DNA of 64,000 nt. It comes from Lachnospiraceae bacterium. Lineage in GTDB: Bacteria; Bacillota; Clostridia; Lachnospirales; Lachnospiraceae. The position numbers and the translations under genes were made by a program. The stretch is from contig JAGAYR010000026.1 in the NCBI GenBank assembly GCA_017940415.1, forward strand, positions 124,001 to 188,000, given 5' to 3'. A model generated the notes under the pieces. The model was not told the origin of the DNA, did not search any database, and worked only from the letters and a program-made list of their open reading frames with translations. Below, piece by piece: positions 1 to 20,481 of this stretch. Each line of letters opens with the position of its first letter. The first letter of the stretch is position 1.

Positions 1-1
1 C

Positions 2-62
2 CGAAGTGTTAGGAAAAGATGTAAGAAACTTTTTCTCAGACCTTCAGAAGAAGGGATATTAA
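2..62 (+). CDS. C-terminal end of an upstream gene (partial)
   Basis: Only the last 19 codons lie in the window; they read EVLGKDVRNFFSDLQKKGY and stop with TAA at 60-62. The next gene starts 21 bases later behind a GAGGTG ribosome binding site, with no room for a terminator, so this gene probably shares a transcript with the pel operon. The fragment is too short to assign to a family. Base composition and codon use match the downstream genes. Confidence 0.5.
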   Translation, partial: EVLGKDVRNFFSDLQKKGY

Positions 63-2261: not shown

Positions 2262-3160
2262 TGAATTCTCATCTTACGATTCTTCTTAGCGTATTCATTA
2301 TCAACTTAATTATTTCAGTCATTTATCTGGTGGTAGGTCTTGGCCGTAAGACTAAGTCTATCGTTCTTAAATTTACGGTAATGGCTTTGTGCCCCGTCCT
2401 TGGACCTATGTTTTTCGGGCTGTCATATCTGTTCTATAAGTTCTTTTTCTCGGAGCCTGTTGATCTCGAGGACGTAATATTCAGCAAGGATAAAGTAAAA
2501 TCAACATTCCGTGCCGAGGAAGACAGAGAGCGAAATCTTGTTTCAATCGAAGAAGCAATCGCTGTCACCAATGAATCGGATCTCAGAACTCTTATGATGA
2601 ATGTCGTAAGAGGTGATGTTCGTCAGACACTCACTTCCATTTCGCTTGCTCTTGAAAGTAACGATTCCGAGACTGCACACTATGCCGCATCCGTTCTTCA
2701 GGATGCTCTCGGTGAATTCAGGGCAAATGTAGAGAAGTACCGCAAGATGATGGGAGAGGATAAGGAAACAAGGATCTATGCGGCAGAGGCTGCGGTCACC
2801 TACATGGATGGTGTTCTCAAGCAGAAAGTATTTACTCCCATTGAGCAGAAACACTATGTGAAGATCATGGAAAGCATATGCGGAGTCATCTATGATGAAG
2901 CTCCCGAATCCATGGAATTGCCATATCTTGAAGCAATATGTATGAGACTTCTTGAGATAGAAGATCACAGTGCATGTGAGAAGTGGTGCGACAGACTTGT
3001 AGAGATGTTCCCCGATACGCTTCCTTCTTTTACATGCCGCTTGAAACTTTATTTCAATAAGCATGACAGAGAGAAATTCTTTAATGTTATAAATGAACTC
3101 AAAGCTTCATCCGTAGTCGTAGACAGGGAGACATTGGAGCTTATAAGAGTTTTTATGTAA
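2261..3160 (+). CDS. pelE: PelE-like membrane-anchored TPR protein
   Basis: A 299-residue protein with two N-terminal membrane helices (residues 5-27 and 35-62) and a soluble helical region resembling tetratricopeptide repeats. The segment around LALESNDSETAHYAASVLQ is typical of PelE, which partners with PelD and PelG in the inner-membrane synthase complex. The ATG overlaps the pelD stop codon (GTGATGA); a GTG one codon earlier is possible, but the ATGA arrangement recurs through this window. It sits between pelD and the DUF2194 gene, the order reported for Gram-positive pel operons. No catalytic residues are expected; the role is scaffolding. Identification rests on membrane topology, helical repeats and position as much as on sequence. 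Confidence 0.75.
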   Translation: MNSHLTILLSVFIINLIISVIYLVVGLGRKTKSIVLKFTVMALCPVLGPMFFGLSYLFYKFFFSEPVDLEDVIFSKDKVKSTFRAEEDRERNLVSIEEAIAVTNESDLRTLMMNVVRGDVRQTLTSISLALESNDSETAHYAASVLQDALGEFRANVEKYRKMMGEDKETRIYAAEAAVTYMDGVLKQKVFTPIEQKHYVKIMESICGVIYDEAPESMELPYLEAICMRLLEIEDHSACEKWCDRLVEMFPDTLPSFTCRLKLYFNKHDREKFFNVINELKASSVVVDRETLELIRVFM

Positions 3161-3170
3161 GGTAAAGGTA

Positions 3171-6478: not shown

Positions 6479-6479
6479 G

Positions 6480-7916
6480 GTGGCAGGAATTGGTGTAAAA
6501 CTTAATAAGATATACAGCAAGAGAACCATAGCCACAGGTATATGGGGTGCGGGTTACAGTACCGTTATTTCCATCGCTCCCATGGTGCTTGTTATCCTTG
6601 CGGTTTATCTGATGCAGAGATTCCTCGGATATTCAAAGCTCAGCTATGCTTCCAGGGAATTATATTCCTGCACGGTCCTTTATATTTTTATCTTCGGACT
6701 GCTTACCGCATCGCCCTTTAATGCAGTGCTTTCCAAGTATATGTCGGATATCATTTATTACGATGAATACGACAACATTATCCCCTGCTATTATGTAGGA
6801 CTGTTTATGAACACTATCCTGAGCTTTATAGTCGGTGTTCCTTTCTGCATCAGGGAATACATAGTCGGAAAGATCGATCCTTATTTTATCTTCCTTGGAT
6901 TTTTCGGATACATGTGCCTCATGATGGTATTTTATTCGATGCTTTATCTTTCCATTTGTAAATCCTATAAGAGAATTTCCGTATTCTTCCTGATAGGAAT
7001 GACGTTAACGGTTCTTCTGTCACTGCTTTTCGTCTATGTATTTAAGATGGAAGTTACCTATGCAATGCTGCTTTCACTTGACCTTGGCTTTATGCTCATC
7101 GGTTCACTTGAATATGCACAGATCAGAAGCTACTTCAGGGAAAACAGCGGACGCTATAAAGAAGTACTTAGATATTTCAAAAAGTACTGGAAGCTGGTTG
7201 CAACAAACTTCCTTTATATCCTGGGTCTTTACGTACATAACTTCGTATTCTGGACTACCGATATGAAGCTGGTGGTTGCAAACTGTTTCGTATGCATGCC
7301 TTCATATGACATGGCTACATGCCTTGCGATGTTCACCAATATCTCCGCAAGCGTAATCTTCATATCACAGGTGGAGATGTATTTCCACGAAAGATACAGG
7401 AAATATTCCGAGGCTGTAACCGGCGGAAGAGGAATGGATATCAGAAATACCAAGTCCAGAATGTTCGAGCAGTTATCCGATGAGATCATGAACCTGGTAA
7501 GAATCCAGTTCATCGTCACCGTCGTAATCTTTTTCCTGGCGGTTATGATACTTCCCAGATTCGGATTTGGCGGACTTGTGCTTGATATTTACCCTTGTCT
7601 TACTTCCGGATACTTCATCCTGTTTATTATGTATTCGGCAATAATATTCCTTTACTATTTCAATGATCTTAACGGAGCACTTCTTACTGCTGTCTGTTTT
7701 GTGGCATTTACATTCGCAGGCTCAATGATGTCCAAGGAGCTTACACCTCTCTGGTACGGACTCGGACTTATACTGGGAAGCTTCGCGGGATGGATCACCG
7801 CATATTACAGACTTCGCAAGATGGAAAAGACTCTGGACGTACATGTATTCTGCAGCGGACATCTTATGAAACGCAGGGAAGGAAAGATGCCTTCCAACAA
7901 AGTTTACTCCAGGTGA
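6480..7916 (+). CDS. pelG: PelG, Pel polysaccharide membrane transporter
   Basis: A 478-residue polytopic membrane protein of the MOP flippase superfamily with about 12 hydrophobic segments. I place the start at GTG 6480 rather than the upstream in-frame TTG at 6459. The GTG gives MAGIGVKLNKIYSK, matching the usual PelG beginning (MAGIGFELRK), and is preceded by AAGGAG at 6463-6468, whereas the TTG would put that site inside the gene. PelG is thought to carry the nascent polymer across the membrane together with PelD, PelE and PelF. It lies one base after pelF and is followed 13 bases later by a DUF2304 gene, so transcription continues into the glycan genes. Confidence 0.92.
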   Translation: MAGIGVKLNKIYSKRTIATGIWGAGYSTVISIAPMVLVILAVYLMQRFLGYSKLSYASRELYSCTVLYIFIFGLLTASPFNAVLSKYMSDIIYYDEYDNIIPCYYVGLFMNTILSFIVGVPFCIREYIVGKIDPYFIFLGFFGYMCLMMVFYSMLYLSICKSYKRISVFFLIGMTLTVLLSLLFVYVFKMEVTYAMLLSLDLGFMLIGSLEYAQIRSYFRENSGRYKEVLRYFKKYWKLVATNFLYILGLYVHNFVFWTTDMKLVVANCFVCMPSYDMATCLAMFTNISASVIFISQVEMYFHERYRKYSEAVTGGRGMDIRNTKSRMFEQLSDEIMNLVRIQFIVTVVIFFLAVMILPRFGFGGLVLDIYPCLTSGYFILFIMYSAIIFLYYFNDLNGALLTAVCFVAFTFAGSMMSKELTPLWYGLGLILGSFAGWITAYYRLRKMEKTLDVHVFCSGHLMKRREGKMPSNKVYSR

Positions 7917-7929
7917 AAGGAGAACGGAT

Positions 7930-8304
7930 ATGAATGCAATGGGCCTTATATTTAAGATAGTCGTAATCCTTCTCGGAGCATTTCTGCTCTGCGATGCGAT
8001 CTTTTCTCTTGCGAAAAGAAAAATGACTGAATCGTTTTGCCTGATGTGGGGTCTCATCTCGGTTATCACTATAATCGTTGGCATTATCATACAGCCCTCC
8101 AAGCTGTCGGATTTCCTTTCTCCGATGAGCTTTGCGCTTATAATTTTGGCACTTTATCCCTTGCTTCATATCGCACTCTTTTTCTCACATACAATTTCTG
8201 ACCTTGTACGTAAGAACAATGAGCTTGCGATAAACGTTTCGCTTCTTATCAGCGAAAACGAAGAGCTGAAGAAGATGATCGAAGAGATCAAAGATGGAAA
8301 ATAA
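7930..8304 (+). CDS. DUF2304-family small membrane protein
   Basis: A 124-residue protein with three hydrophobic segments (about residues 4-22, 35-55 and 65-90) and a charged, probably coiled-coil tail (SENEELKKMIEEIKDGK). The pattern of an early membrane helix, a KRKMTESFCLMWGL motif and a coiled tail matches DUF2304, a small protein usually encoded next to GT2 or GT4 glycosyltransferases in polysaccharide loci. Its biochemical role is unknown; helping membrane attachment of a partner glycosyltransferase is a guess from context. It starts 13 bases after pelG behind AAAGGAG and overlaps the next glycosyltransferase by 11 bases, which suggests translational coupling. Confidence 0.75.
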   Translation: MNAMGLIFKIVVILLGAFLLCDAIFSLAKRKMTESFCLMWGLISVITIIVGIIIQPSKLSDFLSPMSFALIILALYPLLHIALFFSHTISDLVRKNNELAINVSLLISENEELKKMIEEIKDGK

Positions 8305-9523
8305 AAAGATCCTGTTTGTGATCAATACTCTGGGAAGAGCCGGAGCGGAAAATGCTCTTATATCTCTCCTGAACAGATTGGTCAGTGATGACAGATACGG
8401 ACAATTAAAGATTTATCTGTATGTCTTAACGGGGCAGGGTGAACTTTTTTCCGATATACCCGAAGGGGTTACGGTGCTGAACAGGAATTACAGTACCGCC
8501 TCCGTGCTCGATAAAAGCGGCAGAAAAGCCCTCAGGAAAACATGCATCGGTGCTCTTGTAAAGAGATTTGATGCAGTAAGACATTTCCCTTATATTGTCA
8601 CTAATCTGGTCTCCATGGCACGCAGCGGTGAGGTTATGCCGGATAAGCTGATGTGGAAAACACTGGCCGATGAGTGTGAAAGATTCGATGAGCATTTTGA
8701 TCTGGCCGTTGCTTTCCTTGAAGGCGGATCCACTTATTATGTTGCGGATCATGTGAAGGCTGATAAGAAATGTGCCTTTGTGCATGTGGATTATACTCAG
8801 GCAGGTTATTCAAGAAAGCTAGATAAGAATTGTTATGAGAAGTTCGATAAGATCTTCTCCGTATCGGATCAGGTTAAAGAAACGTTTTTGAAGGTATATC
8901 CCGAACTTCAGGATAAAGCGGAAGTATTCCGTAATATCGTGGATTCGGACAAGATCATAAAGCTTGCCGGAGAGGGCGGGGGCTTTGACGACGGCTTTAC
9001 CGGCAAGAGAATAGTTACCGTATGCCGCCTGACAAGACAGAAATCTCTGGAAGTTTCCGCTGATGCTATGAGAATAATCAAAAGCTGCAGGAAGCAGGGA
9101 GAGGAACCTGTCAGATGGTATATCATCGGCGAGGGTGACCGGAGAAATGAGCTGGAAAGTTATATTGATAAGCTTGGCATCTCCGAAGATTTTGTTTTAT
9201 GCGGAGCATATGATAATCCTTACCCGTATATAAATGATGCCGATATATATGTTCACGCCACGAAATTTGAAGGCAGAAGTATTGCGATAAGAGAAGCGAT
9301 GCTTTTGGGTAAAGCGGTTATCGCAAGCGATACTCAGGATAACAGAGATCTTATAGATGACGGCAGTGACGGCCTTTTGTGCAAACTGGATGCCGAGTCG
9401 CTCGCAGGCATGATCCTTGAATTCCTTGATAATTATGAGCTGTTAAGAAAACTTGGAGATATGGCTTCCAAGAAGGAAATAAATAGTACGGACGATACCG
9501 AAAAACTTATTTCACTTTTATGA
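8294..9523 (+). CDS. GT4-family glycosyltransferase
   Basis: A 409-residue GT-B enzyme. The N-terminus KKILFVINTLGRAGAENAL is the classic GT4 start, and the C-terminal half contains VTVCRLTRQKSLEVS, a donor-loop region and EGRSIAIREAMLLGKAVIASD, where the EX7E glutamates bracket SIAIR. It would transfer a sugar from a nucleotide donor to a lipid-linked or protein-bound glycan in the cytoplasm. No membrane helix is seen. The start codon overlaps the end of the DUF2304 gene by 11 bases. The sugar specificity cannot be read from the sequence. It is the first of several transferases appended to the pel genes, so it may act in a separate glycan. Confidence 0.88.
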   Translation: MENKKILFVINTLGRAGAENALISLLNRLVSDDRYGQLKIYLYVLTGQGELFSDIPEGVTVLNRNYSTASVLDKSGRKALRKTCIGALVKRFDAVRHFPYIVTNLVSMARSGEVMPDKLMWKTLADECERFDEHFDLAVAFLEGGSTYYVADHVKADKKCAFVHVDYTQAGYSRKLDKNCYEKFDKIFSVSDQVKETFLKVYPELQDKAEVFRNIVDSDKIIKLAGEGGGFDDGFTGKRIVTVCRLTRQKSLEVSADAMRIIKSCRKQGEEPVRWYIIGEGDRRNELESYIDKLGISEDFVLCGAYDNPYPYINDADIYVHATKFEGRSIAIREAMLLGKAVIASDTQDNRDLIDDGSDGLLCKLDAESLAGMILEFLDNYELLRKLGDMASKKEINSTDDTEKLISLL

Positions 9524-9536
9524 CGACATATTAAAG

Positions 9537-10316
9537 ATGATGGAAAACGAAAATCAGGAAAATAAAAAATCGTTGATAATTATCCCTGCATATAACGAGG
9601 GAGCTACTATCGGGACTCTTCTTGACAGACTTAAAGAGCCGGATATTTCAAGCTATGCTGATATCCTCGTTATGAATGATGCTTCCCGCGATAACACCGA
9701 GGAAGTGGTTAGAAGCAAGGGGGTAAAGACCGTACGACATATTTATAACCTGGGATACGGAAGCGGTCTTCAACTCGGTTATAAATATGCATATTATCAC
9801 GGATATGATTACGTTATTCAGATGGATGCGGACGGTCAGCATGATGTAAGCAATCTGGCTTCCATATACTCTGCACTGACCACACCGGATGAAAAGGGTA
9901 ATTACCCCGATATTATTCTCGGATCAAGATTTACAAACGGATTTAAAGATTATCCGACTTCGTTTGTTAAAAGGATCGCTTACAGACTGTTTTCTTTTCT
10001 CATTAAATGCGGAACCGGATTTAAAGTAACGGATCCCACCACGGGACTTCAGGGCTTAAGCAAAAGAGCTTTTTCACATTACATGAAGTACGGACAGTTT
10101 GATGATAAATATCCCGATGCCAATATGCTGATGCAGATGCTTCTTCTTGGATTTAATGTTCGTGAGATACATGCAGTGATGCACACGAGAACAACGGGCG
10201 AGAGCATGCATTCGGGATTAAAGCCCATCATTTATATGTTCAGAATGGCTGTTTCGATAATCGCGGTATGGATAAGGATCACTTGGTTTAAGGAAAAATC
10301 CGAAAGCTTGGGATAA
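9537..10316 (+). CDS. GT2-family (DPM1/GtrB-like) glycosyltransferase
   Basis: A 259-residue GT-A enzyme beginning SLIIIPAYNEGATIGTLL, with the nucleotide-binding VMNDASRDNT and the metal-binding DADGQHD (near residues 97-103). This is the layout of dolichyl- or undecaprenyl-phosphate sugar synthases, although the long C-terminal membrane tail of some GtrB proteins is absent; only one hydrophobic segment (FRMAVSIIAVWIRITWF) is seen. It probably makes a polyprenyl-phosphate hexose for the membrane GT-C-like protein two genes downstream. Its neighbour DUF2304 is a frequent companion of this family. The stop TAA overlaps the next ATG by one base. A second ATG at 9540 is an equally good start. 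Confidence 0.85.
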   Translation: MMENENQENKKSLIIIPAYNEGATIGTLLDRLKEPDISSYADILVMNDASRDNTEEVVRSKGVKTVRHIYNLGYGSGLQLGYKYAYYHGYDYVIQMDADGQHDVSNLASIYSALTTPDEKGNYPDIILGSRFTNGFKDYPTSFVKRIAYRLFSFLIKCGTGFKVTDPTTGLQGLSKRAFSHYMKYGQFDDKYPDANMLMQMLLLGFNVREIHAVMHTRTTGESMHSGLKPIIYMFRMAVSIIAVWIRITWFKEKSESLG

Positions 10317-11518
10317 TGGCATTTTTAAAACTGTTCAAAAATGCATATACCTTTAAGGCAGCCCGCTTTAAAGAAGATGATATCGATCCTGTTAATCCTG
10401 ACAGGGGTTGGTTTCATTTATATACATTTGATGTCCGGTCCGAAGATATTAAACCCGGGCTTGAGACAGTTGTAACGGATCCTGATCAGTCGGTTGTGCT
10501 GATACTTATATGCATCGGTAAGAAAGTAAATGACGATACTGTTGTTAAGATAAAAGAGATTATCGATCATTTCTGCAATGCAGGTAAGGATATCGTATTA
10601 AGAGTTACTTTTGATACCAACGGACATGCTCTGGAAAAAGAACCCGAAGATATAGAGGATGTTCTTGAGTGTGCCGAAAAAATCGGAAACCTTTTAAGTA
10701 AACTTGGAGACAAGATCTTTGTTTACCAGGGACTTTTTGTAGGCAACTGGGGAGAGATGCATACCACCAGATATGACGATCACGAATCCCTTGGCAGGAT
10801 CTACGAAAAGCTTTCCCGTGATGATGAAGGTGTTTGCGGACCTTATATAACTGTAAGACGCCCCGACATACATATGGCGCTCACTAAACCCGGAGACAGA
10901 CTCGGACTGTTCAACGATGCCATATTTGCTTCTGAGGATGAACTTGGAACTTTTGCGGATCCCGAGATTGATTCCGAATATGAGAGTAAAGTATCTCTGA
11001 ATGTACCCTACGGCGGAGAGACAGTTTACGGAAACGGATATATTAAGACACTTTCGGATAAAGATATTTTTAACAGGTTTGCCAAGAAAAGGATCACATA
11101 TCTTAACAGTGATCATGATGTTAAACTGCTGGATCATCTGAAAGCTGATGATAAGCTTTACGGATATATATCAAAGCATTTGGGATACAGATTATATGTA
11201 TCAGATGTGAAATACTCACACGGTTCTAAGTCACTTACCGTGAAAGTATCGAATTCAGGATTTGCACCGATTTACAGAAGCACGAAATGCACACTTTATT
11301 TTACTGAAAGCGAAGGCAATATCCTGGAACAGGAAACGGATGCGGACCTTTCCAAGGACTCGGAATTTAAAGCGGTAATACCTGAGAAGGTTTATGAAGA
11401 ATTTAAAATGCCTGTCAAAGTATCTCTTAAAACCGTAAGAAGATATGATGACAGAGAAATACATTTTGTGAACACTCCGGTCGAAGACGGAAGAGTGTAT
11501 CTGGGAGAATTGTTTTAA
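10316..11518 (+). CDS. DUF4874/DUF4832-like putative glycan-active protein
   Basis: A 400-residue protein without signal peptide or membrane helix. The N-terminal half contains NPDRGWFHLYTFD and later FVGNWGEMHTTRY, which match the NPdRG and GxWGE(M/W)H patterns of DUF4874, a barrel fold related to glycoside hydrolases. The C-terminal 110 residues look like the beta-rich DUF4832 module. GEMH carries a candidate catalytic Glu (near residue 146). Family members occur in polysaccharide loci but are mostly uncharacterised, so hydrolase activity is not established. A cytoplasmic location is odd for a glycan hydrolase. The start overlaps the previous stop and the stop abuts the next ATG, so the gene is fully embedded in the operon. 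Confidence 0.65.
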   Translation: MAFLKLFKNAYTFKAARFKEDDIDPVNPDRGWFHLYTFDVRSEDIKPGLETVVTDPDQSVVLILICIGKKVNDDTVVKIKEIIDHFCNAGKDIVLRVTFDTNGHALEKEPEDIEDVLECAEKIGNLLSKLGDKIFVYQGLFVGNWGEMHTTRYDDHESLGRIYEKLSRDDEGVCGPYITVRRPDIHMALTKPGDRLGLFNDAIFASEDELGTFADPEIDSEYESKVSLNVPYGGETVYGNGYIKTLSDKDIFNRFAKKRITYLNSDHDVKLLDHLKADDKLYGYISKHLGYRLYVSDVKYSHGSKSLTVKVSNSGFAPIYRSTKCTLYFTESEGNILEQETDADLSKDSEFKAVIPEKVYEEFKMPVKVSLKTVRRYDDREIHFVNTPVEDGRVYLGELF

Positions 11519-14017
11519 ATGGAATTGCTTTATTGGATATTGGAATACAGCAAGGTAAACATCGCATACATGGTGCTGATGTTTGTTTGGCCTTCAATAA
11601 TATTTTATAAGTTCTTAAAGGGAAGATCGTTTTCATTCAGATTCATGTTCTGCTGCGTGAGCAGTGTTATATCCTATAACATGACCGTTATGGTACTGGG
11701 ACTTTTGCATATATTGTATGTCCCTGTATTTCGTTTTCTTTTCTACGGAAGCGTGGTCGCAAGTCTGATCTCAAGGATCCCTGATAAAAGAGGCAAGGTC
11801 AGAGAGTTCGGAAGAGTTCTTGCGGGAAGCTACGGAGTAAAGCAGCTTTTCTTTAATCTCTTCAGAAACACCATCGATACTTATCACAAGAATAAAAAAG
11901 AACTGGCTGAGAAACTCCGCGGACGTAAGCTGGAGTTTGGTTTGCTGTCCGTTGTGCTTATCTTCGGTATGGTCTATTTCACCTACGGAACCATCCAGAA
12001 TCATTCCTTCGGCTTCGGTGATATGTATGTTCACAGTTCATGGATCTATGGGCTGGTAGAGGGAAAGATTTTCTCATCGGGAATCTACCCCGAAGGTATG
12101 CACTGCTTTATCTATGCGATGCATGTTGCTTTCGGTATCAGTCTTTTCAGTTCCGTTCTTTATACAGGTCCCGTTCACTCACTTATCATTATGGTGAGCG
12201 TATATGTATTCCTGAGAAGACTATTCAGATCCAGATTCACCCCTATCTTTTCGCTTGCTCTTTTCCTTACACTGGATGTTTTATGTATCGATGAAGTCTA
12301 CGGAATGTCCAGATTCCAGTGGACAATACCTATGGAATTCGGGCTTGCCTTTGCATTTATATGTGCCACCGCTCTTTGGGATTACCTTGAAGAGGGCGGA
12401 AGAGAAGGCGGATTTCCGAAGCTGTTTAAAAAGAAGAAGAGATCTGCTCTTGCAGAGAAACTTATATATAATGACGCACTGGTTATCTTTATCGGAGCAC
12501 TGATCTGTACGATCATATCTCATTTCTATGCAACGGGAATGGCATTTTTCCTCTGCTTTGCAATCGTTCCTTTTATGCTCCACAAGCTTCTGAATTATAA
12601 GAGATTTATTCCTCTTTTTGTTTCCGTTGCCGTTGTTCTTATCGTTGCTATAACCCCTATGGCTCTTGCTTATGCTTCGGGTATCGAATTCGAGAAGTCC
12701 ATCGGATGGGCTGTGAGCGTTATCGAAGGTGATGAAAAGGATGCCGACGAAAACGGCAATATGGTAAGCGTCGGACAGAATCAGAATGCCGGAAACGAAA
12801 CGGGAACAGAGCAGGGCGCCGAGGGCGGTTCTTCTCAGGATCAGACTACCGTAACAGTTAATCCCGGTGAACCCGGTTCATCCGATATTGCAGCAGATGA
12901 GTCACATGCTGTACATGAACCTGTAAAGGTCAGCATGATCGAGAGGTTGAAAAACTTTGGATTCGCATTCAGACATTACGGATATGATACTCTTTATAAA
13001 GACAGGGGCATTCTGGTAATCGGTTTTACAATTCTTGCATTTGCTGTTTTCGCCGTATGTAAGATTGCAAATATCATCTATGTGCTTGTCAGAAAAGACG
13101 ACTCCGTAAATATGAGAATGTTTGACGGATATTTTGTAATAGCATTTGCATCGGTTCTTTTCATGCTTATGTACAGTGCATACGGAATAGGAATTCCCAG
13201 CCTGTTTGCACCCAGCCGTCTCTGCGGCCTGGAAAGATTTCTTCTGTGTGCTGTATGCTTTATCCCTGTTGATCTGGTATTCATGCTTCTTGAGAAGTTT
13301 ACTCCCGGAGTGGTCGTAAGTATCATCAGCATTGCCGTAACCGCAGGAATCTATGTTGGCTGTATCAAGACCGGTAATTTCAGAGGATATCTCTACTGTG
13401 AATTTACCAGATATAATTCGGTCGTAAATGTAACCGAATCCATCATTGCAAATATGGAGCCCAAGACATTTACCATCGTTTCTCCCGTTGATGATCTGTA
13501 TCATTCCATCGAATACGGCTTCCATGAGGAGCTGGTTCAGTTTGCCAATGACTGCGTTGAGAAGGATTACACCCTTCCCACCGAATATGTATTTATCTTC
13601 TATGAGAAGAGACCTTTGAAGTATGCTCAGTTTAACTTCTTCATGGGACCTTCCTGGATAGCAGAAGATAAATATGTGGAATTCTACGATAACGAAACCG
13701 GAAGCAGATATCCTGATTACATCCGCTCCACAGCGTCACCCGAGATAGCGGTAGGACCTTTCTATAAGTTCCCCGTATCATCAAAGTCATATAAGGACTG
13801 GCTTACCAGAACCGTTCTTGAATCAAGAATGCTCAAATGGGTTGATGACTTCAATAATCTTTATCCAAACGAGCTTCATGTGTATTATGAAGATGAGAAT
13901 TTTGTCTGCTACTATTTCAGACAAAATCCCGCTTGTCTCTACCAGCTTGGATTTGAGATCGATGATTCCAGAGTCAGAACAGAAGATGCAATGAATGGAA
14001 GTACCAAATTTAACTGA
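11519..14017 (+). CDS. Large polytopic membrane protein, possible GT-C glycosyltransferase
   Basis: An 832-residue protein with roughly 12-14 hydrophobic segments. A hydrophilic insert near residues 410-465 (rich in Gly, Glu, Asn and Gln) and a soluble C-terminal domain of about 200 residues flank the membrane parts. FGFGDMYVHSSWIYGL (about 163-178) sits in the first large loop where GT-C enzymes carry catalytic acidic residues, so use of a polyprenyl-linked sugar is possible. I do not recognise a named family. It directly abuts the DUF4874-like gene (TAAATG) and is followed two bases later by the Stealth gene. The upstream GT2 enzyme could supply the lipid-linked donor. The assignment is structural inference only. 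Confidence 0.55.
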   Translation: MELLYWILEYSKVNIAYMVLMFVWPSIIFYKFLKGRSFSFRFMFCCVSSVISYNMTVMVLGLLHILYVPVFRFLFYGSVVASLISRIPDKRGKVREFGRVLAGSYGVKQLFFNLFRNTIDTYHKNKKELAEKLRGRKLEFGLLSVVLIFGMVYFTYGTIQNHSFGFGDMYVHSSWIYGLVEGKIFSSGIYPEGMHCFIYAMHVAFGISLFSSVLYTGPVHSLIIMVSVYVFLRRLFRSRFTPIFSLALFLTLDVLCIDEVYGMSRFQWTIPMEFGLAFAFICATALWDYLEEGGREGGFPKLFKKKKRSALAEKLIYNDALVIFIGALICTIISHFYATGMAFFLCFAIVPFMLHKLLNYKRFIPLFVSVAVVLIVAITPMALAYASGIEFEKSIGWAVSVIEGDEKDADENGNMVSVGQNQNAGNETGTEQGAEGGSSQDQTTVTVNPGEPGSSDIAADESHAVHEPVKVSMIERLKNFGFAFRHYGYDTLYKDRGILVIGFTILAFAVFAVCKIANIIYVLVRKDDSVNMRMFDGYFVIAFASVLFMLMYSAYGIGIPSLFAPSRLCGLERFLLCAVCFIPVDLVFMLLEKFTPGVVVSIISIAVTAGIYVGCIKTGNFRGYLYCEFTRYNSVVNVTESIIANMEPKTFTIVSPVDDLYHSIEYGFHEELVQFANDCVEKDYTLPTEYVFIFYEKRPLKYAQFNFFMGPSWIAEDKYVEFYDNETGSRYPDYIRSTASPEIAVGPFYKFPVSSKSYKDWLTRTVLESRMLKWVDDFNNLYPNELHVYYEDENFVCYYFRQNPACLYQLGFEIDDSRVRTEDAMNGSTKFN

Positions 14018-14019
14018 TC

Positions 14020-15048
14020 ATGAATATTGATATTGTGGTGCCCTGGGTGGATTCTTCCGATCCCGAATGGCAGTCTGATAAAAGTAAATATTCATCAGGT
14101 AATTCTTACGGTGACCGCCCCGAAAGATTTAGGGAAAGGGGCTTGTTAAAGTATTTTTTCAGATGCATCGATAAGAACATGCCCTGGGTCAGGAATGTTT
14201 TCTTCCTTACACGACAGAATGTTCCCGCGTGGATCGATACATCGAATCCTAAGCTTCGCATAGTAAAGCACGAGGATTTTATTCCGGAGAATGCTTTGCC
14301 TTGTTTTAACAGTTCACTCCTTGAAAGGTATCTTCATCTGATTCCGGATCTTTCAGAGCACTTTATATATTTCAATGATGACTGCTATGTTCTTTCACCG
14401 GTCTGTGAAGATTATTTTTTTCATAACGGACTTCCCAGGGACATGCTTGCATTTCAGCCTGTTGTAGCCAATCCCAAAGATCCCGGAATGTCCCATCTGT
14501 TTCTTAATGACGCTTTGGTCCTTTCAAGGCATTTTGATAAAAGGGCAACCGTAAAAGAAAACTTTGGTAAGTTCTTCCACATCGGGTATCCTCTTTTGAA
14601 TTTTGTATATAATGCACTTGAGATGTGCTTTCCCAAATTTTCAGGTTTATATTCCGTTCACAGTGCCGCACCTCTTTTAAAAAGTAATTTCGTAGAGCTG
14701 TGGGACAAAGAAGGAGAGTATCTTGAGTCCCTTGCGGGAAACAGATTCAGAAGCGATTCGGATGTGAATCAGTATCTGTTCAGGGAATGGGGTAAGCTTA
14801 AGGGCAGATTTGTTCCCTCAAACGTCACCCGCCATGTCATGTATACGGAAATTTCCGAAGATAACAGCAAGACTGTCGAATTGATCAAGGCGAAGGGAAA
14901 GAGATATTTTGCTCCCGCTGTTAAGATCTTATGCATAAATGACACTGTAGATTCCCCTGATGATGAAACGTTCTCGAAGCAGCTTATAGATGCATTTGAG
15001 TCATCTTACGCTGAAGCATCAGGTTATGAGAAAAGGTCCGATGAATAA
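14020..15048 (+). CDS. Stealth-family sugar-phosphate transferase
   Basis: A 342-residue protein with the conserved Stealth regions in order: CR1 IDIVVPWVDSSDPEWQ at the N-terminus, CR2 including RERGLLKYFFRCIDKNMPWV and FFLTRQNVPAWID, the acidic core FIYFNDDCYVL, and CR3/CR4-like VHSAAPLLKSNF and later DSDVNQYLFREW. Stealth proteins are capsule-type hexose-1-phosphate transferases (and the core fold of GlcNAc-1-phosphotransferase) that build phosphodiester-linked glycans. This suggests that the glycan made downstream of pel contains sugar phosphates. No membrane helix is seen. The gene starts two bases after the membrane protein and overlaps the nucleotidyltransferase start by eight bases. 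Confidence 0.9.
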   Translation: MNIDIVVPWVDSSDPEWQSDKSKYSSGNSYGDRPERFRERGLLKYFFRCIDKNMPWVRNVFFLTRQNVPAWIDTSNPKLRIVKHEDFIPENALPCFNSSLLERYLHLIPDLSEHFIYFNDDCYVLSPVCEDYFFHNGLPRDMLAFQPVVANPKDPGMSHLFLNDALVLSRHFDKRATVKENFGKFFHIGYPLLNFVYNALEMCFPKFSGLYSVHSAAPLLKSNFVELWDKEGEYLESLAGNRFRSDSDVNQYLFREWGKLKGRFVPSNVTRHVMYTEISEDNSKTVELIKAKGKRYFAPAVKILCINDTVDSPDDETFSKQLIDAFESSYAEASGYEKRSDE

Positions 15049-16267
15049 TATCCGGAACATATTTACTGACATCGTAAAAAATTCTCTTAAGGATAGCAGT
15101 CTTTGCACGGTGGTCTCGGCGGATCTTCCCGGGGCTGAATACGCAGAGCTTGTTCGTCTTGCCAGGATACATAAAATCTCCGCTCTGATATATGATGAAT
15201 TCCGGAAGTTAAGCATCTGTCCACCTGCTCTTATGCAGAAGGTTGAAACCCTTGCCTTAACCACGGTCAACACTTCTTTTGATCTTCTCTATATTTCCAA
15301 GGATATATCCGATCGATTAGCAAATGCTTCGATTCCCGCTGTGCTCATTAAGGGGATTACTGCGGCATCCTATTATCCTCAGCCTTTATACAGGAAAAGC
15401 GGGGATGTTGATATTCTTGTATCCGAAAGCAGACTGGATGACGCGGTGAAAGTATGTGAGGAAATCGGATATTCCGTAAAAGAGATCCAGAGAGCACATC
15501 ACCATGTGGTAATGGGAAAGAGCGGAAGCCCTGATATAGAACTTCATACAATGATTGCGGAACCCTTTGATGATAAGAGGGTTAACGGCCTTTTGAAAAA
15601 ACAGGTATCCGGGCTTTTCGAAGATTTTGAGGGCGAAAAGAAGTGCTTTCAGAATAAGGACATCCTTGGCATTAACTTTACAATGCTGTCCGATGCATAC
15701 ATGGCTTATGAGCTATTACTTCACATGCTTCAGCATTATCTGAGGTCCGGCTTCGGAATAAGGCTTCTTTGTGACTGGGTTGTGTTCTGGAACTGTAAAG
15801 AATGTGAGAGCGCGGCTTCCGAATATCTGACTCTTGTAAAAAAATGCGGCATTAAGGGATTCTCGGATATGATCACATGTGTATGCATCAAATATCTGGG
15901 ACTTGATAAACATGCAGCCGAGCTTTTGAATATTGATACGAAATTTTCCGATCATGAGCTGGAGCTTTTTTACGATGAGTTTATGAATGCCGGTGAATTT
16001 GGGAAGACTTCCAAGGATCGCATGGTTTCCCTTAGGGGAAACAAACTGACGGATTATATCAGGGAATTTCACCATCAGATGAGGCTGAACTTTCCGAAAG
16101 TGTCAAGAATTTGCCTTATCTGGCCGATATTATGGATAGTGACATTTGTGCGTTTTATGGTAAATAATAAAAAGGTAAGGAACGTGAAACTGTCTTCGGT
16201 TATTTCCACAGCCGGAGAACGCGGAAAAAATAATGCAAAACTGAGGCTTTTTTCGCATAATTATTAG
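15041..16267 (+). CDS. NTP_transf_5-family nucleotidyltransferase
   Basis: A 408-residue protein matching the NTP_transf_5 pattern: VLIKGITAASYYPQPLYRKS followed by GDVDILV (the Asp pair that binds metal and nucleotide), then HHHVV and IELHTMI. In lasso-peptide clusters such as paeninodin and pseudomycoidin, proteins of this family sit with an HPr-kinase-like enzyme and add hexose to a phosphorylated peptide. The same pairing occurs here, with a PqqD/HPr-kinase-like protein 2.5 kb downstream. It may therefore belong functionally to the peptide cassette rather than to the Stealth operon that transcribes it. I chose ATG 15041, preceded by AAAAGG; ATG 15026 is an alternative. No terminator was seen after the gene. 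Confidence 0.8.
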   Translation: MNNIRNIFTDIVKNSLKDSSLCTVVSADLPGAEYAELVRLARIHKISALIYDEFRKLSICPPALMQKVETLALTTVNTSFDLLYISKDISDRLANASIPAVLIKGITAASYYPQPLYRKSGDVDILVSESRLDDAVKVCEEIGYSVKEIQRAHHHVVMGKSGSPDIELHTMIAEPFDDKRVNGLLKKQVSGLFEDFEGEKKCFQNKDILGINFTMLSDAYMAYELLLHMLQHYLRSGFGIRLLCDWVVFWNCKECESAASEYLTLVKKCGIKGFSDMITCVCIKYLGLDKHAAELLNIDTKFSDHELELFYDEFMNAGEFGKTSKDRMVSLRGNKLTDYIREFHHQMRLNFPKVSRICLIWPILWIVTFVRFMVNNKKVRNVKLSSVISTAGERGKNNAKLRLFSHNY

Positions 16268-16278
16268 CAATTATTGAA

Positions 16279-16307
16279 TTGACAAAACAGGTGTCATGGA
16301 ATAGACT
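16279..16307 (+). promoter_or_regulatory. Promoter of the precursor-like gene
   Basis: TTGACA at 16279-16284, a 17-base spacer and TAGACT at 16302-16307. The predicted start of transcription, near 16314, leaves a leader of about 74 bases before the ATG. The perfect -35 box suggests strong expression of the small gene apart from the operon upstream. Confidence 0.55.
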
Positions 16308-16387
16308 AACATAGGTTAAGAAAGCGTTTACACGGGATATGGATTTTTTAATTTAAACGGTAAGATCCCGAGATTGAGGAAAAGATT

Positions 16388-16930
16388 ATGTTTAAGTATG
16401 AAAAACCTGTAGTTCTGGAACTTGAAGACATCGCAGAAGGCATCTACGCTGCCAGCGGAGATGAAGAAATCGGCGGTGGAGAAAACGGCGGCGAAAACGG
16501 CGGCGAGAACCGCGGCGGAGAAGAGGGCGGTGAGGATAAGCACCAGGGCCCTTATTACATCGAAGAGAGCGACTGCTGGACCATCGATATAAACTCCGAT
16601 CAGGATGATGCCGGCGGATATCACACATTCCGTCTGTCATGTGTACACAGCACCAACCTTCAGCATATTTCTACTGCAACCACAATTATTATCGTATTTA
16701 ACCAGACTGTTACAAGAGCTGAGTTTGAAGGCTTCGAAGCAGAGTGGAGCGGATCTACCGTTAAGCTTGTCAGAAGACTGCTTGCAGACTCATACATGTC
16801 GGGAGACAATTACAATTCACTCCTCAAGGTTTGGACCGATGGAGATTGCAAGACTCTTATGGTTGTTTCCAAGTACATTAGCTGCACTAAGGAAGTCAAT
16901 GTACAGGGAAATGGCGGAGACGGCAACTAA
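16388..16930 (+). CDS. Precursor-like secreted protein with AEGIYAASG leader
   Basis: A 180-residue protein of no named family that I recognise. Residues 1-24 (MFKYEKPVVLELEDIAEGIYAASG) look like a conserved leader, of the kind that begins with EKP and ends in AEG-x-YAASG in many small Lachnospiraceae proteins (recalled, not searched). The leader lacks the hydrophobic core of a Sec signal. A Gly/Glu/Asn-rich spacer (about 28-55) joins it to a beta-rich domain of about 110 residues with four Cys (in DCWTID, LSCVHS, DGDCK, ISCTK) and motifs FNQTVTRAEFEGFEAEWSG and SGDNYNSLLKVW. The gene is monocistronic, with its own promoter and terminator, and is followed by an ABC exporter and other peptide-processing genes. 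YAA-SG would suit a signal-peptidase-like cut. It could be a RiPP-like or exported adhesive protein. Confidence 0.7.
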   Translation: MFKYEKPVVLELEDIAEGIYAASGDEEIGGGENGGENGGENRGGEEGGEDKHQGPYYIEESDCWTIDINSDQDDAGGYHTFRLSCVHSTNLQHISTATTIIIVFNQTVTRAEFEGFEAEWSGSTVKLVRRLLADSYMSGDNYNSLLKVWTDGDCKTLMVVSKYISCTKEVNVQGNGGDGN

Positions 16931-16952
16931 TCCTTAAACTCCAGTAAGATAC

Positions 16953-16987
16953 AATAACCGCTTTCCGGAAACGGAAGCGGTTATTTT
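16953..16987 (+). terminator. Intrinsic terminator of the precursor-like gene
   Basis: A hairpin of AATAACCGC...TTCCG pairing with CGGAAGCGGTTATT (one bulged T, GAAA loop), followed by a run of six T. It ends 46 bases before the ABC transporter start and separates the two transcripts. Confidence 0.9.
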
Positions 16988-16996
16988 TTCGGTGAT

Positions 16997-17026
16997 TTGA
17001 AACGTCATTAGTCGTTCGTATATAAT
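16997..17026 (+). promoter_or_regulatory. Promoter of the ABC exporter, possibly leaderless
   Basis: TTGAAA at 16997-17002, an 18-base spacer and a perfect TATAAT at 17021-17026. Transcription would start near 17033, which is the A of the ATG itself, and no ribosome binding site precedes that ATG. Confidence 0.6.
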
Positions 17027-17032
17027 ATTTCT

Positions 17033-18787
17033 ATGCTAAAAAAAATATTCAATTTTTTTCGTAAAAAATCGAATATCGCAACGCTTAAAAAAAGAGTGCT
17101 TTGGGTTGGCGGATATGCCGTCAGATACTGGAAGGAAATGCTTTTTTATACCATTCTCGGATTGTCGGGAACGGCCCTTTCCCTGATAAGCAGTCTTGTT
17201 TCGAAGGATCTTGTCGATATCATAACGGGACATCAGACCGGCAAACTGGTGACCACCTTTATTTTCATGATCTGTATGACACTTGGTTCTACCCTTGTCA
17301 CTCAGATATCCGGATATTTTTCTTCCAAGATAAATCTGAGAGTTGAAAATACCATCAGAAATGAGATCTTTGAGAAGATACTTTCTGCTGACTGGGAGCG
17401 CCTCAGCAAATATCATACCGGTGATCTTCTGGCCAGATGGGGAAATGATATTTCTTCACTGTCAAATGCGGTCTTGAGTTACATCCCCAATGCGATTGTA
17501 TATCTGTTCAGATTCGGTGCGGCTTTTGCCATAATGGCGAAGCATGATTTTTCTTTTGCCCTGATAGCCATGGCAGGAATGCCTTTTTCATATTTTATTT
17601 CCAGAAATCTTACGCGCAGAATGCAGAGAAACAACATGCGCAGTTCCGTTATGAATGCAAAGATGTCCGGATTCAATCAGGAGGCTTTCTCCAATATCCA
17701 GACTATCAAGGCATTCGATATGATCGGTCATTACGTAAAAAGACTTAAGGAACTTCAGAACGAATACGTTAAAATGCGTCTGAACTATCAGAAAGTCTAT
17801 ATAGTCATCTCCATGCTGCTGACACTGGTGGGCCTCGGAGTGACTAACTTCTCATACGGATGGGGTATTTACAGAGTCTGGTCCGGAGCAATAACTTACG
17901 GAACAATGACAATGTTCCTGTCTTTGTCCGGAACTCTTTCCGGTACGCTTAACAGTCTGTTATCACTTATCCCTTCGGGAATATCCATAACCACATCCGC
18001 TTCAAGACTTATGGATCTGGTAGAGCTTGAAAAAGAAGATTTTTCCGAGAAAGAAGAAGTAAGAGAGTTTTGCAAGAATCACGGATCTTCCGGTGTCGGA
18101 CTCGAAGTTAAAGATGTTGAGTATTCTTATCTGAACGGCAATAAGGTATATGAAAATGTATCAATCACCGCAAATCCTCAGGAAATTGTTGCGTTGATCG
18201 GACCTTCGGGTCAGGGTAAGACAACCATGCTCAGACTCCTTCTTGCTCTTATCAAACCTCAGGCAGGAGAAGCTTATCTTGTGGGTGAAGGCGGTAACAA
18301 GATGAAACTTACCGCTTCTGTCAGACAGATCATTTCTTACGTTCCACAGGGAAATACGATGTTTTCCGGAACTATTGCGGAAAACATGAGAAATGTAAAA
18401 GAAGATGCAACGGATGAGGAGATAATTGATGCCCTAAAATCCGCTTGTGCATGGGAATTTGTAGAAAAACTTCCTGAAGGTATCAACAGCCCGATAATGG
18501 AAAGAGGCGGAGGGTTTTCCGAAGGACAGGCTCAGAGGCTTTCAATAGCAAGAGCATTTCTGAGACGTTCTCCGATACTTTTATTGGATGAAGCTACATC
18601 GGCACTGGATCCCGAAACTGCGAAACAGCTGCTTAAGAACATAACAGAGGATAAATATCCAAGAACCTGTATTCTTACAACTCACAGACCTGCGATGCTC
18701 AGAGGCTGTGACAGAGTATACAGGATTGCCGATAAGCATTGCCATGAGCTCAGTAAAGAAGAAATCCTGGAAGTTATTAATACGTAA
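17033..18787 (+). CDS. ABC transporter (fused membrane and ATPase domains), peptide-export type
   Basis: A 584-residue half transporter. Residues 30-320 carry six membrane helices of the ABC exporter type, and 350-584 form the ATPase: Walker A GPSGQGKTTMLRLL, Q-loop YVPQGNTMFSGTI, a variant signature SEGQAQRLSIARAF and Walker B ILLLDEATSALD. It lacks the N-terminal C39 peptidase found in bacteriocin exporters, so any leader must be removed by another enzyme; the S24/S26-like protein nearby is the obvious candidate. The likely cargo is the 180-residue protein immediately upstream. The ATG at 17033 has no Shine-Dalgarno; GTG 17096 is the next alternative start. Its end overlaps that of the convergent PqqD/kinase gene by 11 bases. 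Confidence 0.85.
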   Translation: MLKKIFNFFRKKSNIATLKKRVLWVGGYAVRYWKEMLFYTILGLSGTALSLISSLVSKDLVDIITGHQTGKLVTTFIFMICMTLGSTLVTQISGYFSSKINLRVENTIRNEIFEKILSADWERLSKYHTGDLLARWGNDISSLSNAVLSYIPNAIVYLFRFGAAFAIMAKHDFSFALIAMAGMPFSYFISRNLTRRMQRNNMRSSVMNAKMSGFNQEAFSNIQTIKAFDMIGHYVKRLKELQNEYVKMRLNYQKVYIVISMLLTLVGLGVTNFSYGWGIYRVWSGAITYGTMTMFLSLSGTLSGTLNSLLSLIPSGISITTSASRLMDLVELEKEDFSEKEEVREFCKNHGSSGVGLEVKDVEYSYLNGNKVYENVSITANPQEIVALIGPSGQGKTTMLRLLLALIKPQAGEAYLVGEGGNKMKLTASVRQIISYVPQGNTMFSGTIAENMRNVKEDATDEEIIDALKSACAWEFVEKLPEGINSPIMERGGGFSEGQAQRLSIARAFLRRSPILLLDEATSALDPETAKQLLKNITEDKYPRTCILTTHRPAMLRGCDRVYRIADKHCHELSKEEILEVINT

Positions 18788-19973
18788 TGTATTCCTGTAA
18801 AACCTTCCGGGCTTCGGGATCTTTGGTGCAATAGAGCCTGAGTGAAGTTATCTTAGCGGATACAGGCTCAAGATCAAGCATCATTTTTTTCAAAGATTCC
18901 GAGTTCCAAAGAGGAGAGATGGTACGCCTGCTTAAGGTTATCAGTGCTTTTTCGTAAGTGAATTCTTCAATCCTGTTTTCAGCGGCCTGCTTAAGAAAGA
19001 CCACTCCGCCCAAAGGGTAATCCTCTTTTGTGAATATTTCCGATGTTCCGCACCAGGGAATTCCGAATACGTAAGGAGCACCTGCTTTTATACCGATCAG
19101 GTTAAGGTCTCCGTTGATATTGACAGCATCAGAATACTGAGTCCAAAGACGGGCATGAGTTGATTTTCCGGTTCCTGCGGGAGCGGAAAACAGCCATGCT
19201 TTTTCTTTATAGAGAATAGAAGCGGAATGGATGGCATACATGCCTTTCTTTTCCGCAGTCAGTAAAAAAGGAATCCTTATTGCGTGAAATACTTCATCGG
19301 AAGCAGAGGCGGCGCCGTATCCCGTGATAAGGCATATAAGGACTTCGGGTCCTGATTTGCGGATGTACATTTCTTTTACGCAGGTATTCTTTTTGTATCT
19401 GATGATATAAAAGGATTCCGATTCGGAAATTGTCATCTCTGACGCATCAGCAATGATTGTCTCTTTTTCGGAAACTGTGATATCTTTTTCAGTGGTACGG
19501 ATTTGCAGATCAGGGGCAATTGTGAAGTCTGATTCAAATGCCGAAAATTTGGCTTCGGTGAGAGCGGGAGCTGTTGTAAGCTCCAGATTTATACCTGCAA
19601 TGGTGACTTTGGTGACTGCATCAATATCTGCGTTATTGTAGGCCTCGTCAAAGGAAACTCCCCGGGTATCTGTAGAGAGTTCACGGTGGGAGGGCAGCTC
19701 ATCAAGCAGCATTCCCAGATTTTTGAGCTGATCGAGGAATGCCTTGATATCGGAAGGTACTTCACTTACGGAAGAATCCGGTATGTCGCTTTCAGCAATA
19801 TAGCCTGATATGAGATCATCCTCGCAGGCATATTTGTCCGCCAGATTCCAGATATCCGCACCTGTCCGGCTTATTTTTATACCGCGTTTATGATCGCTGA
19901 TACTTTGGCCGAAAGGAAGCAGATACCGGCTTTCCGATATATTTATCATTGTGAAATAAGGGTTTTTGAACAT
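18777..19973 (-). CDS. PqqD-like and HPr-kinase-like fusion protein
   Basis: A 398-residue protein. The N-terminal 95 residues (RYLLPFGQSISDHKRGIKISRTGADIW..., then helices ending in LKNLGMLLDEL) have the winged-helix pattern of PqqD peptide-recognition domains. A middle beta-rich region leads to an HPr-kinase-like P-loop domain: AIHSASILYKEKAWLFSAPAGTGKSTHARLW near residues 245-275, NINGDLNLI, and GIPWCGTSEIFTKEDYPLGGVVFL. HPr-kinase relatives in lasso clusters phosphorylate the peptide C-terminus; PqqD domains bind leaders. The fusion could recruit the AEGIYAASG leader and phosphorylate the core. It is convergent with the ABC gene (11-base overlap) and divergent from the peptidase gene (52-base gap). 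GTGAGG precedes the ATG. A second Met at residue 9 is possible. Confidence 0.78.
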   Translation of the reverse strand: MFKNPYFTMINISESRYLLPFGQSISDHKRGIKISRTGADIWNLADKYACEDDLISGYIAESDIPDSSVSEVPSDIKAFLDQLKNLGMLLDELPSHRELSTDTRGVSFDEAYNNADIDAVTKVTIAGINLELTTAPALTEAKFSAFESDFTIAPDLQIRTTEKDITVSEKETIIADASEMTISESESFYIIRYKKNTCVKEMYIRKSGPEVLICLITGYGAASASDEVFHAIRIPFLLTAEKKGMYAIHSASILYKEKAWLFSAPAGTGKSTHARLWTQYSDAVNINGDLNLIGIKAGAPYVFGIPWCGTSEIFTKEDYPLGGVVFLKQAAENRIEEFTYEKALITLSRRTISPLWNSESLKKMMLDLEPVSAKITSLRLYCTKDPEARKVLQEYITY

Positions 19974-20025
19974 ATGAACCTCACTGCCGGTTTATTTTAT
20001 CATTCATAAGAGAAAACTTCCATTT

Positions 20026-20481
20026 ATGACAGAAACAGAAAAGGAAAAACTGAATCCGGAAACATTGCTGAGAGAGGGGAAGACCGTCAGCATCTCCCCA
20101 AAAGGCTACAGCATGTATCCTCTTTTGATACCCGGAACGGACAGGGTTATCATCGAACCTTCTTCAGGGAAACGACTTAAGAAGGGGGATGTTGCTTTGT
20201 TCAGGCGAAAGGAAAGCAAACTGGTCCTTCACAGGATAGTCAGAGTAGCTGAGAGGCCGGACGGGCTTTCGTTCTATTTTTGCGGAGATAATCAGAAGGA
20301 GATTGAAGGCCCGATTCCGGAAGCGGATATATGCGGAAAGGTGGTCTTTATCGAGAAGAAGAAATTGAAATTTTCCGTCCGGAATCCGCTGTATGTTTTG
20401 TCCGTTTTTGTATGGATGATACTCAGGCCCGTAAGACCGAATATTTCTAGGTTTATCGCCCGTTTTAAGAAGGTTTTTTGA
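20026..20481 (+). CDS. Membrane-tethered S24/S26 signal-peptidase-like protein
   Basis: A 151-residue protein with the peptidase core KGYSMYPLL (Ser29 as nucleophile), DRVIIEP, KKGDVALF and LVLHRIVRV. The position that carries Lys in bacterial signal peptidase I is His69 (LHRIV), as in SipW/archaeal-type enzymes with a Ser-His pair. ICGKVVFIEK completes the fold. Unusually, the single hydrophobic helix lies near the C-terminus (PLYVLSVFVWMILRPVRP), with a basic tail. The first 20 residues are charged, so the protein is a C-tail-anchored cytoplasmic-facing or inverted protease. It is divergently paired with the PqqD/kinase gene. The likely substrate is the YAASG leader of the 180-residue protein. 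Proteins annotated S24/S26 peptidase recur in peptide-modification clusters of this kind. Confidence 0.8.
   Translation: MTETEKEKLNPETLLREGKTVSISPKGYSMYPLLIPGTDRVIIEPSSGKRLKKGDVALFRRKESKLVLHRIVRVAERPDGLSFYFCGDNQKEIEGPIPEADICGKVVFIEKKKLKFSVRNPLYVLSVFVWMILRPVRPNISRFIARFKKVF

Follow-up and report, generated by a model that had tools for sequence, protein, structure and literature searches.

A 64,000-nucleotide stretch of a Lachnospiraceae bacterium genome (GenBank assembly GCA_017940415.1, contig JAGAYR010000026.1, positions 124,001 to 188,000; hereafter the window) contains five neighbouring genes that are likely to form a Lachnospiraceae branch of the maturation system known from linear polyphosphorylated peptides (LPP), adapted to protein-sized cargo. 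The cassette, found in a 2.69-Mb assembly of 48 contigs, consists of a 180-residue substrate with a conserved leader (the cargo), an ABC exporter, a PqqD domain fused to an HprK-like kinase (the fusion), a signal-peptidase-like protein and a nucleotidyltransferase-like enzyme of the NTP_transf_5 family. This reading is carried by a leader common to different cargos, the tie of this leader to the cassette, the conserved catalytic residues, the variety of the cargo and the genomic neighbourhood. A first reading of the window from sequence only (the sequence-only reading) had proposed an undescribed class of peptide modification and export system. The same enzyme set has been published for LPP, encoded by lppA-K-B-S-D-N in Paenibacillus alginolyticus (Popov et al. 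2026, PMC13381572), and a wholly new class was therefore rejected. What we describe is a distinct LPP-like branch whose new features are a recognition domain fused to the kinase, its own leader block, several kinds of protein-sized cargo and a Pel-like polysaccharide partner. Among open-licence PMC papers, none was found that reports the leader, or a PqqD-HprK fusion with such a gene set, in Lachnospiraceae.

A conserved leader linked to the fusion

The motif AEGIYAASG, named in the sequence-only reading, belongs to a leader of 24 residues, aligned without gaps, that is common to proteins whose cores have no detectable relation. In the window this leader block (residues 1-24, MFKYEKPVVLELEDIAEGIYAASG) lies at 16388..16459 on the plus strand and follows a gapless 24-column profile; it includes YxKP (residues 4-7, 16397-16408), predicted to bind the RiPP recognition element (RRE), and EGIYAAS (residues 17-23), the predicted cleavage and phosphorylation block. 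In a non-redundant set of 73 leader proteins, which keeps a single copy of sequences identical over their first 60 registered residues, Tyr4 (69/73), Pro7 (70/73), Glu17 (72/73) and Ser23 (72/73, with Thr in the remaining protein) are near-invariant, and when positions are numbered from the leader, Ser23 alone is Ser or Thr in at least half of the proteins. The leader had been judged not to be a Sec signal, and no hydrophobic N-terminal signal was found: the best 12-residue segment from residue 4 has a median hydropathy of 0.87 and exceeds 1.6 in 1 of the 73 proteins.

A 24-column profile built from 38 leaders was searched in 397 genomes of the family and in a phylum-wide sample of 398 genomes. 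It matched 23 of the 397 at E 5e-8 or better, with one further weak and partial match (G047; E 2.5e-4, columns 1-16 only) that was excluded from the leader set, and only the window's own genome in the phylum-wide sample. Taken with the conservation across the 73 proteins, this distribution led us to reject a chance motif. The fusion is present in 25 of the 397 family genomes, and the two features coincide closely (both in 22 genomes, leader only in 1, fusion only in 3, neither in 371; Fisher p 7e-32), the lone leader-only genome being a 68%-complete assembly. One of the genomes scored as having the fusion (G213) shows two kinase pieces within one 412-aa frame in which the PqqD part was not seen; partial fusion matches in G221 and G047 were left uncounted, and with G047 included in the leader set the fusion occurs in 22 of 24 leader genomes. 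The tally of leader neighbours that had been suggested at the outset was thus run, and the leader, instead of occurring mostly without the cassette, is accompanied by the fusion in 22 of 23 genomes. Most leader matches (28/39) have a fusion gene no more than 8 kb away.

Relatives of the fusion protein were also followed from the opposite direction. Some match was found in 47 of 200 genomes of the family, and in named genomes the best 80 of at least 583 loci were divided by E-value into 45 related (core) and 35 outgroup loci, a division that agrees with the kinase tree, yet the core was picked by likeness to the query. Counts for the 45 related loci apply to the stretches as fetched, and some loci represent one genome fetched twice (L042 and L079, for example). 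Among these loci are records that bear the names Fusicatenibacter saccharivorans, Anaerobutyricum hallii, Coprococcus catus and Butyrivibrio. A motif search recovered at least one leader open reading frame in 35 of the 45 related loci and in 0 of the 35 outgroup loci. Five of the related loci without such a frame are pieces of 9.5-15 kb (L057, L070, L086, L087, L090), and a diverged EGVF/EGVY version of the leader occurs in L085, L089 and L090.

The leader genes of the genome of L079 (G135) sit 37 kb away from its fusion, where the peptidase, the ABC exporter and two leader genes are clustered (L165:4834-8224); in the 10 kb around the fusion itself, no exporter, peptidase or leader gene was seen. 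This layout indicates that kinase and export genes need not adjoin. Leader genes with further core types were also seen on contigs other than that of the fusion, namely on G304:C2 (L138, L163), G029:C51 (L161) and G022:C55 (L162). The weak match in G047 corresponds to a small protein whose leader has diverged (L153, G047:C8:139298; YNKP followed by FEPVLAAYS) and which is perhaps related to LPP precursors. In the outgroup Clostridia loci L097, L101, L103 and L105, several short precursors combine YxKP with a block of the EE-x-x-A type and perhaps represent a third kind of leader beside FETxxS of LPP and EGVYAAS.

The five genes of the cassette

All five genes were recovered as open reading frames, all but the cargo gene with Pfam or NCBIfam matches, at or very near the positions first proposed, and their assignments stand. 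The NTP_transf_5 gene (15041..16267, plus strand; PF14907 E 5.9e-31) has an open reading frame that begins at 14990, but that start overlaps the preceding Stealth gene. It is followed by the cargo gene (16388..16930, plus strand), which encodes the leader, a Gly/Glu-rich linker and a C-terminal domain from about Cys63. The ABC exporter (17033..18787, plus strand) combines transmembrane and ATPase parts (PF00664, PF00005); among the 25 families listed of 27 Pfam families matched, the strong ones are ABC_membrane and ABC_tran and no C39 peptidase domain is present, as had been noted. The fusion is encoded on the minus strand (18777..19973) and contains a PqqD/RRE domain at residues 30-89 (PF05402 E 3.9e-6, above cut-off) and an HprK-like kinase at about residues 205-398, the latter weakly matched by TIGR04249 (E 0.006) and TIGR04352 (E 0.044). 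The leader peptidase, of archaeal or SipW type and signal-peptidase-like, lies at 20026..20481 (plus strand) and carries a putative catalytic Ser29/His69/Asp88; its profile matches are all below cut-off (TIGR02228 E 7.7e-11, NF046067 for SipW E 1.1e-6, PF00717 E 1.4e-4).

The putative catalytic residues are invariant among relatives, also where profile matches are weak. Ser29, His69 and Asp88 of the peptidase are invariant in 33 aligned rows, the P-loop (GxGKST) and N-G-D motifs of the kinase in 45 rows, Lys121-Gly122 and Asp139-x-Asp141 of NTP_transf_5 in 20 rows, and the nucleotide-binding motifs of the ABC exporter in 40-42 rows. A profile of the fusion family matches TbiB1 (PDB 5v1u, E 0.005), an RRE from lasso-peptide biosynthesis. 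A branch supported at 100/98 in the kinase tree separates the fusions (46 rows including that of the window) from the other kinase domains, and the part preceding the kinase domain measures 182-229 residues in most of the 45 fusions (range 86-298), compared with 34-142 in the 35 outgroup proteins. The nearest outgroup loci in this tree, L095 and L096, have LPP-like YxxP...FE[TN]xx[ST] precursors.

Within the 45 related loci, the fusion was found in 44, the ABC exporter in 41 (homologue of at least 45% identity), the peptidase in 32 and NTP_transf_5 in 19. Among the 22 cassette genomes of the family sample, NTP_transf_5 is present in all, in 15 of them within 8 kb of the fusion.

Variety of the cargo

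Following the leader, the cores of the 73 proteins have a median length of about 112 residues (range 54-157), and 56 distinct cargos, taken from the loci collected first, fall into 10 BLAST groups. Core types include that of the window cargo (CWT), CYT, the four-Cys type CDSK and a CBM_2-like type. As a comparison of whole-cargo profiles was dominated by the common leader, it was rerun on the cores alone with reversed controls. The CWT and CYT cores are related (95%), while the other pairs among these four types score 0.1-0.65%, against 0.1-0.5% for three reversed controls; comparisons with the CBM_2-like core are weak because its profile comprises two sequences only. The window cargo represents one of several core types that carry this leader. 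In loci with two registered leader proteins the cores belong to different BLAST groups in 12 of 12 pairs, while mean leader identity is 59% in 1366 between-locus pairs and 75% in these within-locus pairs, a value that none of 5000 label shuffles reached (3 of 56 leaders, which have no register on Ser23 and Glu17, were dropped). Leaders thus track their locus, with the maturation proteins encoded there, more closely than they track the cargo.

Same-core relatives of the window cargo occur in other loci and two Cys are invariant in this type; conserved columns, Cys among them, run along the cores. The window cargo matches no Pfam or NCBIfam family, its best PDB sequence match has E 0.11 with unrelated names, and sequence-based fold searches of the CYT and CDSK cores likewise gave no usable match. 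CBM_2 (PF00553) is matched by the cargo at L065:4053-4484 with a score of 26.0 (cut-off 24) and, below cut-off, by that of L071 (19.8), while neither the other 8 cargos of that scan nor the window cargo match it. With the exception of these CBM_2 matches, a beta-rich folded domain and carbohydrate binding are predicted properties of the cargo, and in some relatives the cargo domain probably binds carbohydrate or is stabilised by disulphides.

The leader of the window cargo is joined to its C-terminal domain by a low-complexity Gly/Glu-rich linker (16460-16567; GGENGGENGGEN), which is shorter or absent in 11 aligned relatives, except in L053 with its own linker. A Bacteroides locus (L112:7696-9353) encodes an HprK-like kinase together with three proteins of 131-140 residues that start with YVKP, so that larger cargo may exist in Bacteroidota too.

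Comparison with known systems

LPP clusters share with the window an RRE, an HprK-like kinase, a SipW-homologous peptidase, an NTP transferase and an MsbA-like ABC exporter, as well as precursors with a conserved N-terminus, a variable C-terminus and YxxP, and a location in polysaccharide loci. For LPP, phosphorylation of Ser and RRE-dependent cleavage by a signal-peptidase-like enzyme are experimentally proven: the kinase targets Ser3 of a studied core of 45 residues, and the peptidase LppS (Ser29, His68, Asp93) cuts after Thr and needs the RRE, while changes of core residues A1-N5 left cleavage unimpaired (PMC13381572). LPP precursors of 35-200 aa carry the leader motif YxxPxVLxHQxIxFETxxS, and YxxP leaders, capsule loci and two RRE copies are noted for LPP clusters in the same paper. 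The putative Ser29/His69/Asp88 of the window peptidase can be equated with Ser29/His68/Asp93 of LppS by motif, not by alignment. LPP clusters, whose product is linear, contain no macrolactam cyclase; likewise, in 22 genomes no protein of the asparagine-synthase-like family (PF00733) was found up to 10 kb from the fusion, to the extent that the contigs cover this distance.

Other features differ. The RRE of LPP is discrete, whereas that of the window is fused to the kinase, although a discrete RRE heads the polysaccharide gene run; and the LPP block FETxxS is replaced by EGVYAAS. Since these two defining features of LPP are not shared, we class the cassette as a variant that functions in the manner of LPP and place it outside that group. 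In addition, the cargo is protein-sized and of several recurrent types compared with the 45-residue core studied in LPP, the Pel-like operon has its own RRE, and the family Lachnospiraceae does not appear in the main text of the LPP paper.

In paeninodin and pseudomycoidin (PadeK, PsmK, PsmN), the leader is recognised by an RRE and Ser is phosphorylated by an HprK-like kinase, and PsmN, annotated as a nucleotidyltransferase, is reported in a review of lasso modifications to install hexoses on the phospho-Ser (PMC9266682). The window shares with these pathways the RRE, the kinase and a nucleotidyltransferase-like enzyme. It differs from them in the peptidase family, in the missing asparagine-synthase-like protein around the fusion and in the location of the predicted modified Ser, which would be near the N-terminus of the core here and is at the C-terminus in paeninodin and pseudomycoidin. 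The earlier statement that no lasso cyclase is present was borne out near the fusion in the 22 genomes and in a scan of nine genes surrounding the window cargo, where no such protein was found either, and a lasso peptide was rejected on these grounds.

SipW of Bacillus subtilis is an archaeal-type signal peptidase for the matrix proteins TasA and TapA, which use Sec signals. The peptidase of the window is alike in type, but its presumed substrate has no hydrophobic signal and comes with an RRE, a kinase and an ABC exporter of its own. In double-glycine or C39 exporters (PCAT, NHLP), a dedicated ABC protein exports leader-bearing substrates. Here the ABC protein has no C39 domain and a separate gene for a Ser/His-type peptidase is present instead; export of the C39/NHLP kind was therefore rejected.

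Proposed mechanism and alternatives

The mechanism proposed for this LPP-type branch, which we regard as likely, begins with binding of the leader at Y-x-K-P by the PqqD/RRE domain, upon which the fused HprK-like kinase would phosphorylate Ser23, 16 residues past the Pro. The RRE would then present the leader to the signal-peptidase-like enzyme for a cut within EGVYAAS, leaving the Ser near the new N-terminus, the NTP_transf_5 enzyme from the polysaccharide run would put a sugar or nucleotide on the phosphate, and the product would leave the cell through the ABC exporter independently of Sec. Outside, the cargo would most likely act in or on a Pel-like polysaccharide matrix. Binding, phosphorylation, cleavage and decoration are predicted here from LPP and pseudomycoidin (PMC13381572, PMC9266682), and glycosylation in particular, suggested by PsmN, is a lead; the export route and the matrix role are inferred. 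The sequence-only reading of a cassette for leader-directed modification, cleavage and export thus holds in outline and with protein-sized cargo, while the system reaches beyond the five genes into a Pel-like operon with a discrete RRE.

Phosphorylation of Ser23 (codon 16454..16456, plus strand) is the best prediction for the acceptor. Since the cores differ and a single fused kinase would have to act on all of them, Ser23, as the sole Ser or Thr at a fixed distance from the leader in at least half of the cargos, is the best candidate; by position it corresponds to Ser3 of LppA, the (poly)phosphorylated core residue of LPP (PMC13381572), and its conservation fits such a role. For cleavage, the sequence favours none of three candidate sites. 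Alignment on the Ser would place the cut at EGVY/AAS, and an aromatic residue at P3 as in LPP would place it at YAA/S. Under the small-residue rule of signal peptidases it would be VYA/AS. A cut at YAA-SG, as first proposed, is one of these three candidates, and phosphorylation is the likelier role of the invariant Ser.

Several observations weigh against this reading. NTP_transf_5 and the peptidase are found in only 19 and 32 of the 45 related loci, no leader was recovered by motif search in 10 of these, and five of the leaderless loci (L056, L079, L083, L085, L089) exceed 21 kb. Furthermore, 11 of the 39 leader matches lie away from the fusion, in part because the assemblies are fragmented and some matches are on other contigs. 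Compared with the LPP block, EGVYAAS has one more residue from Tyr to Ser, although YxxP and the Ser are retained. The test for a Ser in fixed register is compatible with other acceptor Ser or Thr that may lie at variable distance, and the likeness of leaders within a locus could also stem from recent leader duplication. Most scanned cargos match no carbohydrate-binding family, and the thresholds for polysaccharide genes were set by hand.

Of the alternatives, the one with most to recommend it, though still unlikely, is compatible with the best mechanism and concerns only the matrix role: cassette and polysaccharide genes could be mere neighbours in variable surface loci. No tested polysaccharide gene is present in the fetched stretch of 26 of the 45 related loci, and the leader genes located away from the fusion would fit as well. 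On the other hand, polysaccharide genes accompany 19 of 45 related but only 3 of 35 outgroup loci under these thresholds, and 17 of the 30 related loci of at least 14 kb; in the window, NTP_transf_5 and the discrete RRE lie inside the gene run of PelG, and a discrete PqqD gene adjoins an epimerase-domain gene in L038, L068, L074 and L079, though none was found in L063. A closer link is also conceivable but doubtful, namely Sec-independent protein-polysaccharide conjugates, in which NTP_transf_5, with the Stealth protein adjoining, would join a sugar-phosphate unit of the polymer to phospho-Ser and so tie the cargo covalently to the biofilm matrix, while the discrete RRE would couple cargo loading to polymer synthesis.

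Two further explanations would change the nature of the product or of the kinase. If the cargo were trimmed further to a short modified peptide, such as a bacteriocin or signal, with the domain as a carrier, the system would be a true peptide RiPP, to which the 45-residue core studied in LPP (PMC13381572), the outgroup precursors of mostly 33-71 residues and the patchy distribution (23/397 genomes) would correspond; cores with a median of about 112 residues, conserved columns including Cys and one CBM_2-matching type make this rather improbable. Equally, the leader could act solely as an export and processing signal, where the PqqD-kinase, driven by ATP, would be a chaperone or docking factor for exporter and peptidase and no lasting phosphorylation would result. 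The joining of RRE and kinase in one clade makes binding and ATP use one physical unit, in keeping with such a factor, but the kinase motifs are invariant and Ser23 is near-invariant even though LPP cleavage tolerates changes of A1-N5 (PMC13381572). The Ser is therefore best explained as an acceptor, and a pure chaperone appears improbable.

The proposed LPP-type branch would extend a peptide-maturation system described in one 2026 paper to leader-directed, protein-sized cargo in common gut bacteria. The activity of the NTP transferase and the role of the product are left open by the LPP authors (PMC13381572), and both questions become testable here: the CBM_2 cargo and the Pel-like run suggest the matrix as the place of action, and the NTP transferase sits among polysaccharide enzymes that could reveal its partner. 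Being short and portable, the leader might also be used to export foreign proteins without Sec.

Polysaccharide genes and other surroundings

The Pel-like gene run (84..15048) is encoded on the plus strand with gaps of less than 25 bp and continues through the end of NTP_transf_5 at 16267, its last gene. It contains an epimerase-domain gene (84-2261), a DUF3492 glycosyltransferase (5039-6478; PF11997 E 3.4e-75) that is presumably PelF-like, PelG (6459-7916; PF16933 E 1.2e-142), other glycosyltransferases, a DUF4832/DUF4874 protein and a Stealth protein (14020-15048; PF11380 Stealth_CR2 E 2e-37), which we take to be a sugar-phosphate transferase. The run is headed by the discrete PqqD/RRE gene, an 89-aa open reading frame (G000:C19:123793-124062, plus strand; PF05402 E 7.4e-11 at C19:123904-124056) whose 3' end lies in the window at 1..62. 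Similar short PqqD genes adjoin the epimerase-domain homologue in the four loci named above (L042 being the same genome as L079); in L063, BLAST did not find the PqqD gene although the epimerase-domain gene is present.

In the gap between cargo and ABC exporter, a hairpin resembling an intrinsic terminator (16953..16985, plus strand; a 13-pair stem followed by a T-run) was identified as a pattern match alone. Elsewhere in the same genome, on contig C1, a radical SAM/SPASM protein (L035:9578-10972) shows a marginal PqqD match near its N-terminus in one of two scans. This is the third PqqD match of the genome and possibly belongs to another peptide-modifying system.

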